DNA of 64,000 bases from Methanolobus tindarius DSM 2278 (GCF_000504205.1 NZ_AZAJ01000001.1:1834879-1898878), one strand, 5' to 3'; counted from the stretch's first letter, positions 97 to 3,491 are shown. Program-made: numbers and translations. Notes: a model not told the origin generated them from the sequence alone.

Positions 97-143
97 TCTT
101 TAAACCCGAATTTGAGTCTATTTGATTCACCAACCCTAATACT

Positions 144-153
144 AATATATAAT
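144..153 (+). promoter_or_regulatory. TATA box of the UbiA operon
   Basis: AATATATAAT is a good archaeal TATA element. It would place the transcription start near 172-176, giving a leader of about 15-20 nt before the TTG start at 192. The box is nearly symmetrical and might also serve the divergent gene on the left. Confidence 0.45.
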
Positions 154-191
154 ACAGGGAATTAGGTGCTATAATCTATCAGGTGATATAC

Positions 192-1136
192 TTGGTTTCC
201 ACTTCAGGCTCTAAAACACGAAATCCTTATCTTGAGATGTTAAGGCCGGAAATATCTGACATGGACTTAGCCCTGCCTGCAGCCAGCGCTTTACTTGCAT
301 CTTATCTGGTTACCGGTGGTTTTCCCGGACTAATACCGTTCATCATAGCTGTGATTGGTGGGTATGCGGCAATCACCAGTTCATATGTTTACAACGATTG
401 CTGCGATATTGATATCGATGCCATAAATCTGCCAGATAGGCCGCTTGTAGCTAATAAACTCAAAAGGAATCAGGCCCTGAAGTATGCAGGACTCTTATTT
501 TTAGTTGCCAGTGCAGCCGCTCTTTATCTTAATCCAGAATCATTTGTGGTTCTTGTGATTGCTGTTGTAACCATCAGTATATACTCAAAACTCGCAAAAA
601 GAATGACATTTTTGAGTTTTGTTCCTGTGGGAATTGCATACGGACTTGTGCCCATTGGTATATGGCTTGCTTTTGATCCCGCAGGGTTCCTGAAAACACC
701 TGATTACGGTTCAATACTTCCACTTCCTGCGATATTCCTTGGTCTGATGATGTGTTTCACAGACTGGGGATTCACACTCTCAGGTGTGGCAAGGGATGTA
801 GAAGGTGACAGGGCCAGAGGAGCACCAACATTCCCGGTGACATTCGGTATTCCTGCAACATCAAAATTCGTTACATTCATGTGGACAGTAGGTGTTATTG
901 CTTCCGTTGCAATTGGAATTACTGCAGAGATCGGTCCTATATACTTTGCAGGTGCACTGCTTGCAGGCGGGTGGATGCTCATCCAATCATTTGATTTCAT
1001 AAAGAACCCAACAGAAGAGCGTGGGGGAAGACTTTTCCTTCAGGGCTCAAGATACAGAGGAATAATGTTTGGTTCTCTCATACTCGATGTAATACTTTGC
1101 ATACTCGTACCGGCTTATTCCGGAATCTTATGGTAA
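192..1136 (+). CDS. UbiA-family prenyltransferase
   Basis: This is an integral-membrane prenyltransferase that moves an isoprenoid chain onto an acceptor. The first Asp-rich motif (NDCCDIDID, near residue 68) is followed by INLPDRPL, and the second (DVEGDRARG, near residue 202) by a TFPVTFG segment. Both are the Mg-diphosphate sites of UbiA enzymes. Eight or nine hydrophobic helices fill the rest. I chose TTG at 192 over the in-frame GTG at 183 because GGTGAT (182-187) is a textbook Shine-Dalgarno sequence 4 nt upstream; the same GGTGAT-TTG arrangement occurs at 11853. The gene leads an operon with a geranylgeranyl-reductase homologue and a radical SAM enzyme. The acceptor is unknown: it could be a lipid glycerol-phosphate (DGGGP synthase) or, from the context, a prenylated cofactor such as methanophenazine (inference). 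Confidence 0.85.
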   Translation: MVSTSGSKTRNPYLEMLRPEISDMDLALPAASALLASYLVTGGFPGLIPFIIAVIGGYAAITSSYVYNDCCDIDIDAINLPDRPLVANKLKRNQALKYAGLLFLVASAAALYLNPESFVVLVIAVVTISIYSKLAKRMTFLSFVPVGIAYGLVPIGIWLAFDPAGFLKTPDYGSILPLPAIFLGLMMCFTDWGFTLSGVARDVEGDRARGAPTFPVTFGIPATSKFVTFMWTVGVIASVAIGITAEIGPIYFAGALLAGGWMLIQSFDFIKNPTEERGGRLFLQGSRYRGIMFGSLILDVILCILVPAYSGILW

Positions 1137-1185
1137 TTCTTATATTTTTGGTAGCTTTGTTAGATTAGCAACTAAGAGGTTCAAA

Positions 1186-2343
1186 ATGGATGCAGATATC
1201 ATAGTAATAGGAGCTTCCCCTGCGGGAGTCATGGCAGCCAGAAATGCATCGGCAAAAGGCTGCAAAGTTATTCTCCTGGATAAAAAGGAAGCAGTGGGAG
1301 TGCCCACTCATCCTGCAAACACATTTTTCAAAGGAATGTTTGACAGGACAGGGGAAGAAGTAGACCAGAGTTATGTAGTTAAGAACCTCAAAGGTGCCTA
1401 TATCATCGCACCTTCCGGGAAGAATGTGATTTTTGAAGGAGATGCTTATTTCCTTGACAGGAAGAAGTTCGATGAATTCTATATTAAGCAGGCCAAAGAT
1501 GCAGGTGCAGATGTTCGCTTCGGTATTGAAGTTCTCAATGTTCTCAAAAATGATGATGGCTTCATTGTAAGCACATCAAAAGGCAAGATTAAGTGTAAAC
1601 TCGTCATTGTTTCTGATGGAATCAACTCAAGGGTCGCTGCACTTCTTGGTATGAAGCCAATTAAACACACTCAGGATATTGCCTGGTCACTTGAGGCTGA
1701 GATTGAGGCAGAAGGCATCGGTGAACCGGATTACTTTGAATATTATGTAGGAAACCATGCTCCTGGGTGGAAATCCACATATTCTCCTTGTGGTGGCAAC
1801 AGAGCTACACTTGGAATGTATGTGCGCAGGCATGGTACAGATGTTTCAGACTTTTTCGATGCATGGCTTGAAAAGTTCAAGGAACTCAAAGGTCTTGATG
1901 ACGTAAAGATCATAAGCAAATCCACCGGTGGCGATCCTATTGTTGCAATTCCCGGTGAGCTTGTGGCTGACGGCGTGATGATAGTCGGCGGTTCAGCAGC
2001 ACAGTCCGGAATTGGCTATGGAATGCATGCAGGACAGATGTGCGGTGATGTTGCAGCAGATGCTATAGCAAAGGGTAACACATCGAAAAACTTCCTGTCC
2101 GAATACCAAAGACGCTGGAATGCAGCTTACAGGACGGAATACCATCTTGGAAGATTCGCCATGGAAACTCTCAGGAAGATGACTGACAAGGAAATCGATG
2201 GGATGATGGAAGTCTTTGAAGGTGAGGATTTGAAAGTTCTTAGCGGAACACCTTTTAACCAGGCGTTACAGGTATCAAAGATGATACTGAAAAATAATCC
2301 ATCTTCTATATTATCATACAGGGCAGTTTTCAGGAACAAATAG
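1186..2343 (+). CDS. Geranylgeranyl reductase family flavoprotein
   Basis: FAD-dependent reductase of the archaeal geranylgeranyl reductase (digeranylgeranylglycerophospholipid reductase) family, which saturates isoprenoid double bonds. The N-terminus has the Rossmann dinucleotide motif (IVIGASPAGVMAA, residues 6-18) followed by an acidic-end strand (VILLDKKE). A second FAD motif (DGVMIVGGSAAQSGIGYGMHAG) lies near residue 260. At 385 residues it has the family's usual length. It is separated from the prenyltransferase by 49 bp and abuts or overlaps the radical SAM gene, so the three are probably co-transcribed. The substrate (membrane lipid or a cofactor side chain) cannot be told from sequence. 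Confidence 0.88.
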   Translation: MDADIIVIGASPAGVMAARNASAKGCKVILLDKKEAVGVPTHPANTFFKGMFDRTGEEVDQSYVVKNLKGAYIIAPSGKNVIFEGDAYFLDRKKFDEFYIKQAKDAGADVRFGIEVLNVLKNDDGFIVSTSKGKIKCKLVIVSDGINSRVAALLGMKPIKHTQDIAWSLEAEIEAEGIGEPDYFEYYVGNHAPGWKSTYSPCGGNRATLGMYVRRHGTDVSDFFDAWLEKFKELKGLDDVKIISKSTGGDPIVAIPGELVADGVMIVGGSAAQSGIGYGMHAGQMCGDVAADAIAKGNTSKNFLSEYQRRWNAAYRTEYHLGRFAMETLRKMTDKEIDGMMEVFEGEDLKVLSGTPFNQALQVSKMILKNNPSSILSYRAVFRNK

Positions 2344-2345
2344 TG

Positions 2346-3491
2346 ATGAAACCAAAATATTATTTCTATAAGAATCCGGTTTTCAAGGTATATGCCCAGG
2401 TTGAAAACAACCGGGTAAGGATGAAGACCTCAGGTATTGCATCATCTATTATGGGTTCTTTTATAGCGGATATGATGGAAATATTCGAGGATACAAAACC
2501 ATCCAAGGTTGAAAAGGATAAACTCATCTATTCAACATGGATGCCTCCAATTCCAAGCAAGGCTTTTGACAGGCTTGTTTCAAGCCAGATGAAGGCCATG
2601 AGGGGAAAATATGTTCCTGAACAAATTACAATTTCAATTACGGAAGAATGTCCGAACAGGTGTCTTCACTGCGCTCTTCCTGACACTAAGAATAAAGCAA
2701 GGCTGGATCCAGATACTGTGAAAAGTGTTATTGACCAGACAATCGACCTTGGTACCACGCTTATTATTTTTGATGGAGGCGAACCACTTCTTTACGATGG
2801 CCTTGAAGATCTTATCAGCTATGTAGACCAGTCACGTGCAATACCAGGTCTTTTTACATCAGGTGTTGGAATGACTCCTGAGCGTGCAAAGAGTCTCAAA
2901 AATGCAGGTCTTTCCATGCTAAGTGTGAGCTTTGACAGTGCTAATGAAGAAGGACACGACTATATGCGTGGCAGACCGGGTGTTTTTAAGGAAGCTGTAA
3001 ATGCTCTTAAAAATGGACTTGATGCAGGCCTGCTGGTTGGAATTTATGTAGTTCTTTCACCACGCAACGTTGATGAACTTGACGATTTCTATGAGCTTGC
3101 AAAGGAACTTGGAGTACACGAATTATCTTTCTATGAGATCGTTCCAACAGGCAGGTGGCAAGGCCATGAGGGGGAAGTAATTACTCCGGAACATATCAAA
3201 AAATTCGATGATTTTGTTGAAAGAACATCCCATGCAGAAGGTCCTCGTGTATTCCCGATTCCTCAGATTATCAGGAAAATGGGATGTTTTGCAGGAAGAA
3301 AATGGCTCCATGTTACTCCGGAAGGGAATGTACTTCCATGCGCATGCATGCCAAAACCATATGGTAATGTTCACGAAGAAAGTCTTGCATCCATATGGAA
3401 AAAGATATACACTGATCCTGTATTCTGCTCTGGTCCATGTCTGATGCGTGATTCTTCATTCAGGATTAATCATCTTGGTCTTGAGCGCTGA
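2346..3491 (+). CDS. Radical SAM protein with C-terminal cysteine cluster
   Basis: Radical S-adenosylmethionine enzyme. The CX3CX2C cluster motif (CPNRCLHC, around residues 102-109) binds the SAM-cleaving [4Fe-4S] cluster, and FDGGEPLL is the GGE motif. The C-terminus carries further cysteines (GCFAGRK, LPCACMP, CSGPC) and resembles a SPASM/twitch auxiliary-cluster domain. About 90 residues precede the core, including an unusual basic/aromatic N-terminus. ATG at 2346 lies 2 bp after the stop of the reductase; a GTG at 2343 would overlap the stop. The specific reaction is unknown. Its place after UbiA and a prenyl reductase suggests modification of a prenylated molecule or its aromatic head group (inference). 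Confidence 0.85.
   Translation: MKPKYYFYKNPVFKVYAQVENNRVRMKTSGIASSIMGSFIADMMEIFEDTKPSKVEKDKLIYSTWMPPIPSKAFDRLVSSQMKAMRGKYVPEQITISITEECPNRCLHCALPDTKNKARLDPDTVKSVIDQTIDLGTTLIIFDGGEPLLYDGLEDLISYVDQSRAIPGLFTSGVGMTPERAKSLKNAGLSMLSVSFDSANEEGHDYMRGRPGVFKEAVNALKNGLDAGLLVGIYVVLSPRNVDELDDFYELAKELGVHELSFYEIVPTGRWQGHEGEVITPEHIKKFDDFVERTSHAEGPRVFPIPQIIRKMGCFAGRKWLHVTPEGNVLPCACMPKPYGNVHEESLASIWKKIYTDPVFCSGPCLMRDSSFRINHLGLER

Follow-up and report, generated by a model that had tools for sequence, protein, structure and literature searches.

What is made by a UbiA-type prenyltransferase, a prenyl-chain reductase and a radical S-adenosylmethionine (SAM) enzyme that are encoded side by side at the start of a 64,000-nucleotide stretch of the Methanolobus tindarius DSM 2278 genome (NZ_AZAJ01000001.1:1834879-1898878, referred to here as the window)? 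A first-pass annotation had linked the three genes to methanophenazine, first described in 1998. In this membrane carrier a phenazine is joined by an ether to a C25 isoprenoid chain that is partly reduced, as a 2,3-dihydro-pentaprenyl ether, and it shuttles electrons between Fpo, Vht or Rnf and HdrDE. The comparative evidence for this link is strong, and from it we infer, with a probability of roughly 0.75, that the operon encodes part of methanophenazine biosynthesis, since these genes turn up in almost all lineages believed to use the carrier and hardly anywhere else. The biosynthesis was called undeciphered in 2018, 2021 and 2024 (PMC6315138, PMC8546582, PMC11477647), and we found no paper tying these genes to the pathway, with preprints and most subscription papers outside the search, so that a recent report could be missed.

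A conserved operon and its three proteins

The UbiA, reductase and radical SAM/SPASM genes form a tight same-strand operon at the window start (Table 1), within a genome available as a single 3.15-Mb contig. This arrangement is not a product of chance, because its order is kept in 30 of 30 Methanosarcinaceae loci, the reductase lying immediately upstream of the radical SAM gene in each and the UbiA end being visible in most, as well as in small-genome genera at 46-57% identity. No curated NCBIfam cut-off was reached by any of the three operon proteins in an NCBIfam scan; judged from their sequences, all three keep their catalytic motifs.

The prenyltransferase belongs to the UbiA superfamily (PF01040, 143.1 bits against a gathering threshold of 34.2), and its NDxxDxxxD and RDVxGDR motifs (N71, D72, D75 and D79; R204, D205, G208 and D209) are invariant among 13 orthologues. 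The AlphaFold2 model, with a predicted local distance difference test score (pLDDT) of 82.7, is a helical bundle matching UbiA structures, and the closest entries in the PDB are the ether-forming archaeal digeranylgeranylglyceryl phosphate (DGGGP) synthases 7bpu and 6m31, about 22% identical to it. The scores nevertheless stay well below the cut-offs of the named subfamilies, with 82.1 bits against 296 for DGGGP synthase (NF009521), 69.5 against 430 for MqnP, 76.8 against 210.3 for heme o synthase and 56.2 against 313 for ChlG.

The reductase matches the Pfam families of flavin adenine dinucleotide (FAD) oxidoreductases, and its best-scoring NCBIfam model is GG-red-SF (TIGR02032), at 126.7 bits against a cut-off of 158.8. 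It has the FAD fold with geranylgeranyl reductases as nearest solved relatives, the best match being the digeranylgeranylglycerophospholipid (DGGGPL) reductase 3oz2 (E 2.5e-29 alone, 2.4e-51 with a profile), followed by the archaeal 3atq/4op series. An APGWK motif is invariant in 17 relatives.

The third protein, radical SAM A, matches Radical_SAM (PF04055, 82.5 bits) and SPASM (PF13186, 34.5 bits). The extra cysteine cluster ascribed to it on first reading is real: besides the CX3CX2C motif at C103, C107 and C110, residues C315, C333 and C366 are likewise invariant in 42 relatives. An N-terminal domain of about 90 residues carries the motif STWxPPxPSxxFxR. The model (pLDDT 93.4) is closest in fold to SkfB, BlsE, SuiB and PqqE (Z scores of 26.2 for SkfB, 24.4 for BlsE and 23.6 for PqqE), all of these being general radical SAM/SPASM matches, and the highest NCBIfam scores, for NirJ2 and AhbD, are at most 126.9 bits against cut-offs of at least 500, short of AhbC, AhbD or NirJ membership. 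Radical SAM A shares the radical SAM core and SPASM cysteines with SkfB, PqqE, BlsE, AhbC/AhbD and NirJ, yet its family is monophyletic, has the additional STWxPPxPS domain and reaches no equivalog cut-off.

Three members of this family are present in the genome, A in the window, B (744582) and C (1119476), the last 97% identical to a Methanolobus vulcani protein, followed by a sharp drop to AhbD-like proteins. A maximum-likelihood tree unites A, B and C in a single clade (100/100) that is widely separated from AhbD. Within it, the C clade (100/99) brings together Methanosarcinaceae, ANME-2-type archaea, Methanotrichaceae, Methanonatronarchaeia and reduced 'Methanocellales' metagenome-assembled genomes (MAGs), while A and B are sisters in the first three and the last two have a separate pair. 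According to the tree, both groups carry one C and two other paralogues, and the second pair may stem from an independent duplication.

The UbiA protein and the reductase most resemble DGGGP synthase and DGGGPL reductase, whether by fold or by sequence, which would suit a role in membrane-lipid or polyprenol metabolism, such as an extra ether lipid or the saturation of lipids or dolichol. The first-pass annotation assumed that membrane lipids can be made without a radical SAM step; the premise is weak, as Tes, an enzyme of archaeal lipid synthesis, is itself of the radical SAM type (PMC10821996) and stands among the structural matches of radical SAM A. We nonetheless regard such a role as quite improbable: a separate DGGGP synthase gene lies elsewhere in this genome (371 bits, above cut-off), radical SAM A is nearer to SkfB, BlsE and PqqE than to Tes in both sequence and fold, and core lipids are needed by all archaea whereas the genes are missing from most of those sampled, the window UbiA and reductase being more restricted than their lipid-synthesis counterparts. 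A core-lipid role was set aside as the principal explanation because of the separate synthase gene and this unlipid-like distribution.

Distribution across archaea

A comparison of methanogens with and without methanophenazine had been proposed as a check, and its outcome favours the link. The phylum was sampled with 393 genomes. Relatives of the radical SAM protein at E<=1e-60 (the next best value being about 4e-37) were found in 95 of them, namely 62 Methanosarcinaceae (f1), four members of an ANME-2-like family of the same order (f2), 14 members of f5, taken as Methanotrichaceae from one matched contig, 13 genomes of the small-genome or halophilic families f10, f14, f16 and f20, and, as exceptions, the genomes G150 and G082. 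A family-wide search recovered the gene in all 112 Methanosarcinaceae genomes, covering 14 of 14 genera. Window-type UbiA (>300 bits) is present in 17 of 17 sampled genomes of f1, f2 and f5, and none of the 26 other sampled genomes exceeds 69.3 bits. The reductase (E<=1e-40) occurs in 26 of these 43 genomes, exactly in f1, f2, f5, f10, f14, f16 and f20, the radical SAM families. The genes are thus present in producers and absent from non-producers, producer status being taken from the family for most genomes.

Close relatives of the three genes co-occur in Methanosarcinaceae, the ANME-2-like family and Methanotrichaceae even where unlinked: in the ANME-2-like family UbiA and reductase are adjacent with radical SAM A elsewhere, and in Methanotrichaceae all three lie apart. 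The menaquinone-type families and the remaining methanogens in the sample lack close relatives of all three together.

When a C alignment was used to scan 84,980 species of bacteria and archaea, 164 relatives were returned, the best 80 of which belong to Methanosarcinaceae, ANME-2/3, Methanotrichaceae, Methanonatronarchaeia, 'Methanocellales' MAGs, one MAG titled Bathyarchaeota and one titled Candidatus Methanoperedenaceae (UBA10536). The latter title, that of a family expected to use menaquinone, may be wrong, because the close C paralogue of this MAG (67%; L179:896-2075) falls beside Methanosarcinaceae in the tree. The Bathyarchaeota-titled MAG has a sister cluster at 63-75% identity on contig L114, which is probably mislabelled or misbinned. 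G150, a genome without UbiA or reductase, has a single divergent family member with a PPIPS motif (L076:9708-12295), adjoining a protein that reads like a cobalamin-binding-type radical SAM enzyme.

Linkage to the C25 prenyl-diphosphate synthase

Geranylfarnesyl-diphosphate synthase makes the chain precursor of methanophenazine (PMC3017947, PMC8546582). This C25 synthase (MM_0789/MA0606) is the only enzyme already tied to the carrier, and would act in the same pathway as the operon; it makes the chain only, however, and is silent on ring synthesis, coupling and reduction. Its orthologue in this genome (NF040627, 333 bits, E 1e-99, below the curated cut-off) adjoins paralogue B, with CcmE, AhbD, further genes of heme synthesis and the ATP synthase operon close by. 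The adjacency of B and synthase recurs in four of four Methanotrichaceae loci and in five of five Methanosarcinaceae B loci read, and was not seen in four ANME-2-like loci. Earlier literature saw the heme and ATP synthase neighbourhood of the synthase in Methanohalophilus, without mention of the radical SAM gene. The linkage of this family to the C25 synthase is new support for methanophenazine as the product.

The gene for CcmE, a cytochrome c maturation protein, adjoins the C25 synthase in Methanosarcinaceae or paralogue B in the ANME-2-like family (L077:11622-12011, L092:10919-11290).

With heme-synthesis and CcmE genes next to B, NirJ2 and AhbD as top NCBIfam scores of the radical SAM protein and heme o synthase among the UbiA matches, the enzymes might instead modify heme or another tetrapyrrole, for example to give a prenylated heme, as CtaB heme o synthase and the radical SAM enzymes AhbC/AhbD/NirJ would suggest by analogy. 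This is very improbable, as the scores in question fall far short of the cut-off (126.9 against 500), the family of radical SAM A forms a clade of its own, and AhbD is a different gene of this genome (602 bits, above cut-off); the separate gene and the distinct clade led us to reject it. Moreover, heme is to be expected in cytochrome-containing archaea of the menaquinone type, yet the MqnE-type families lack the gene set.

Contrast with the menaquinone pathway

The futalosine pathway to menaquinone (MqnA/C/D/E/P) likewise combines radical SAM enzymes and a UbiA-type prenyltransferase to make a lipid redox carrier. With MqnE level taken as at least 370 bits (TIGR03700 cut-off 434.55), matches occur, among families, only in f3, f4, f8, f9, f19 and f33, all without the gene set. 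Set-bearing genomes have CofH-level matches only (<=349 bits), one MAG (G082) excepted; the present genome itself reaches 349 bits, at CofH level and below cut-off. Family f3, of the same order as the window genome, has MqnE and lacks the gene set, as expected of ANME-2d, to which it probably belongs, and an ANME-2d-type enrichment was reported without methanophenazine (PMC5244752). The operon further differs from the futalosine pathway in the low MqnP score of its UbiA protein and in its radical SAM enzymes, which are of the SPASM type and not MqnC or MqnE. We dropped the exclusion of MqnE as proof, the families being too few for a strong statistic, and kept it as support.

A sister gene set

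Stretches of about 8-14 kb in f10, f16 and f20 hold three radical SAM paralogues together with a TIGR03961-like fourth radical SAM gene, a related reductase, another UbiA and a THI5/SsuA-like protein, and in Methanonatronarchaeia the same gene set is split in two clusters. Here the likeness to the futalosine pathway extends to a cytoplasmic protein of periplasmic-binding-protein fold. As read from its genes, the sister set predicts a methanophenazine-like carrier in those lineages. The THI5-like protein was discarded as a universal pathway member, scoring >500 bits only in the Methanonatronarchaeia/'Methanocellales' set and <100 bits elsewhere. The archaeon Met12, of that order, is without Mcr, HdrDE and VhtC (PMC11176372); f10, f16 and f20 are presumably its close relatives.

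These lineages bear on a further alternative, in which the product is some other prenylated redox lipid or cofactor belonging to the same respiratory chain, such as an undescribed quinone-like carrier. Its co-distribution would look identical, a Serpentinarchaeum-like lineage bears a related set though its relative Met12 lacks HdrDE and VhtC, and parts of the set are replaced there by the THI5-like protein and a UbiA of another subfamily. We know of no second carrier from Methanosarcina membranes, and the reductase fits a partly reduced chain. Furthermore, paralogue B has its link to the C25 synthase, an enzyme known to make a product that goes into methanophenazine (PMC3017947), and we therefore consider another carrier unlikely, albeit the least so of the alternatives.

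The ring precursor

The small-genome Methanosarcinaceae genera g140 and g141 (1.3-1.8 Mb) retain the operon wherever the contigs extend far enough; they are consistent with, though not proven to be, the arthropod-gut clade of PMC11362671. Chorismate synthase and chorismate mutase were each found in all eight of their MAGs (G398-G403, G407, G408; L254-L261), whereas the PF00425 chorismate-binding enzyme was found in none of the eight, against 20 of 20 other genomes. The MAGs are 57-93% complete, and eight joint absences are unlikely to arise by chance. If these genera make methanophenazine, its ring would not derive via 2-amino-2-deoxyisochorismate (ADIC), anthranilate or isochorismate from a PF00425-type enzyme. 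An imported amino-acid precursor that replaces chorismate in gut-type auxotrophs was considered and failed, as chorismate synthase and mutase are kept and only PF00425 is missing. In G408 the synthase and mutase matches share one 533-residue open frame, which suggests a fusion.

The bacterial PhzA-G pathway is expected to yield the same ring system, but PF00425 is the family of PhzE, missing from these MAGs, and PhzF is patchy among methanogens (PMC5244752). We give slightly less than an even chance to the ring itself being made by the radical SAM enzymes. We give similarly guarded credence to a broader proposal, in which an archaeal phenazine route unrelated to Phz would have the radical SAM trio assemble the ring without ADIC or anthranilate and UbiA and the reductase finish the molecule, with a related route in Methanonatronarchaeia and in Serpentinarchaeum-like archaea, whose relative Met12 does not make methane, so that such carriers would reach beyond methanogens.

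A proposed pathway and its weight

Taking methanophenazine as the product, the C25 synthase encoded elsewhere makes the geranylfarnesyl diphosphate chain, as established in published work, and the trio of radical SAM A, B (beside the synthase) and C (elsewhere) would build or tailor the aromatic acceptor. UbiA would then join the chain to the acceptor hydroxyl of phenazine or a precursor as an ether, as suggested by family chemistry and by the ether-forming DGGGP synthases being its nearest folds, and the reductase would saturate the alpha double bond, next to the ether.

Several points weigh against this assignment. The support is comparative, and methanophenazine is chemically proven in few species, with most lineages assigned by inference. 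Candidate genes for building the ring are confined to the radical SAM set. The exclusion of MqnE at the family level is suggestive only, resting on few families, and is broken by G082, of another family, which holds radical SAM A (57%; L078:7707-8837) together with MqnE and has neither UbiA nor reductase. Contamination is not indicated as the cause, the base composition being close to the rest of the MAG and to its sister. Finally, the reduced 'Methanocellales' lineage may use a different carrier, because it resembles Met12 in which Mcr, HdrDE and VhtC are missing.

Now that its genes have names (UbiA, reductase, radical SAM A/B/C and C25 synthase), the pathway becomes open to direct tests in Methanosarcina, which is genetically tractable. 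Methanophenazine is at present guessed from cytochromes, and the set would serve as a genomic marker for it; the set further suggests a phenazine made by radical chemistry in anaerobic archaea. A C25 synthase is also present in 'Ca. Methylarchaeales', methanogens with cytochrome b that fall outside Halobacteriota (PMC9478090).

Gene calls and neighbouring genes

Table 1. Coordinates of the operon and its candidate promoter in the window, and of the sister gene set in other genomes.
Feature	Position	Strand	Remarks
UbiA-superfamily membrane prenyltransferase, 317 aa	183..1136	+	start GTG 183 or TTG 192; candidate methanophenazine prenyltransferase
Geranylgeranyl-reductase-type FAD protein, 385 aa	1186..2343	+	candidate prenyl-chain reductase
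Radical SAM/SPASM protein A, 382 aa	2343..3491	+	start GTG; alternative ATG 2346
AT-rich TATA-like stretch, candidate operon promoter	143..155	+	28-40 bp before UbiA start; read from sequence
Sister set in 'Methanocellales' MAGs/Methanonatronarchaeia	L065:6837-14546, L066, L068, L110-L112, L115; two clusters L072-L075		THI5-like protein cytoplasmic, UbiA divergent

The three adjacent, co-directional genes were correctly described at first reading, with gaps of 49 bp between UbiA and reductase and about 2 bp before the radical SAM gene. The latter is obtained with the ATG start (+2 bp), the GTG start giving -1 bp. The UbiA start placed at 192 is a later in-frame TTG within the 317-residue frame. 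An archaeal tRNA-guanine transglycosylase gene precedes the operon, ending near base 37, and such a gene also stands directly upstream in those small-genome Methanosarcinaceae genera with sequence read.

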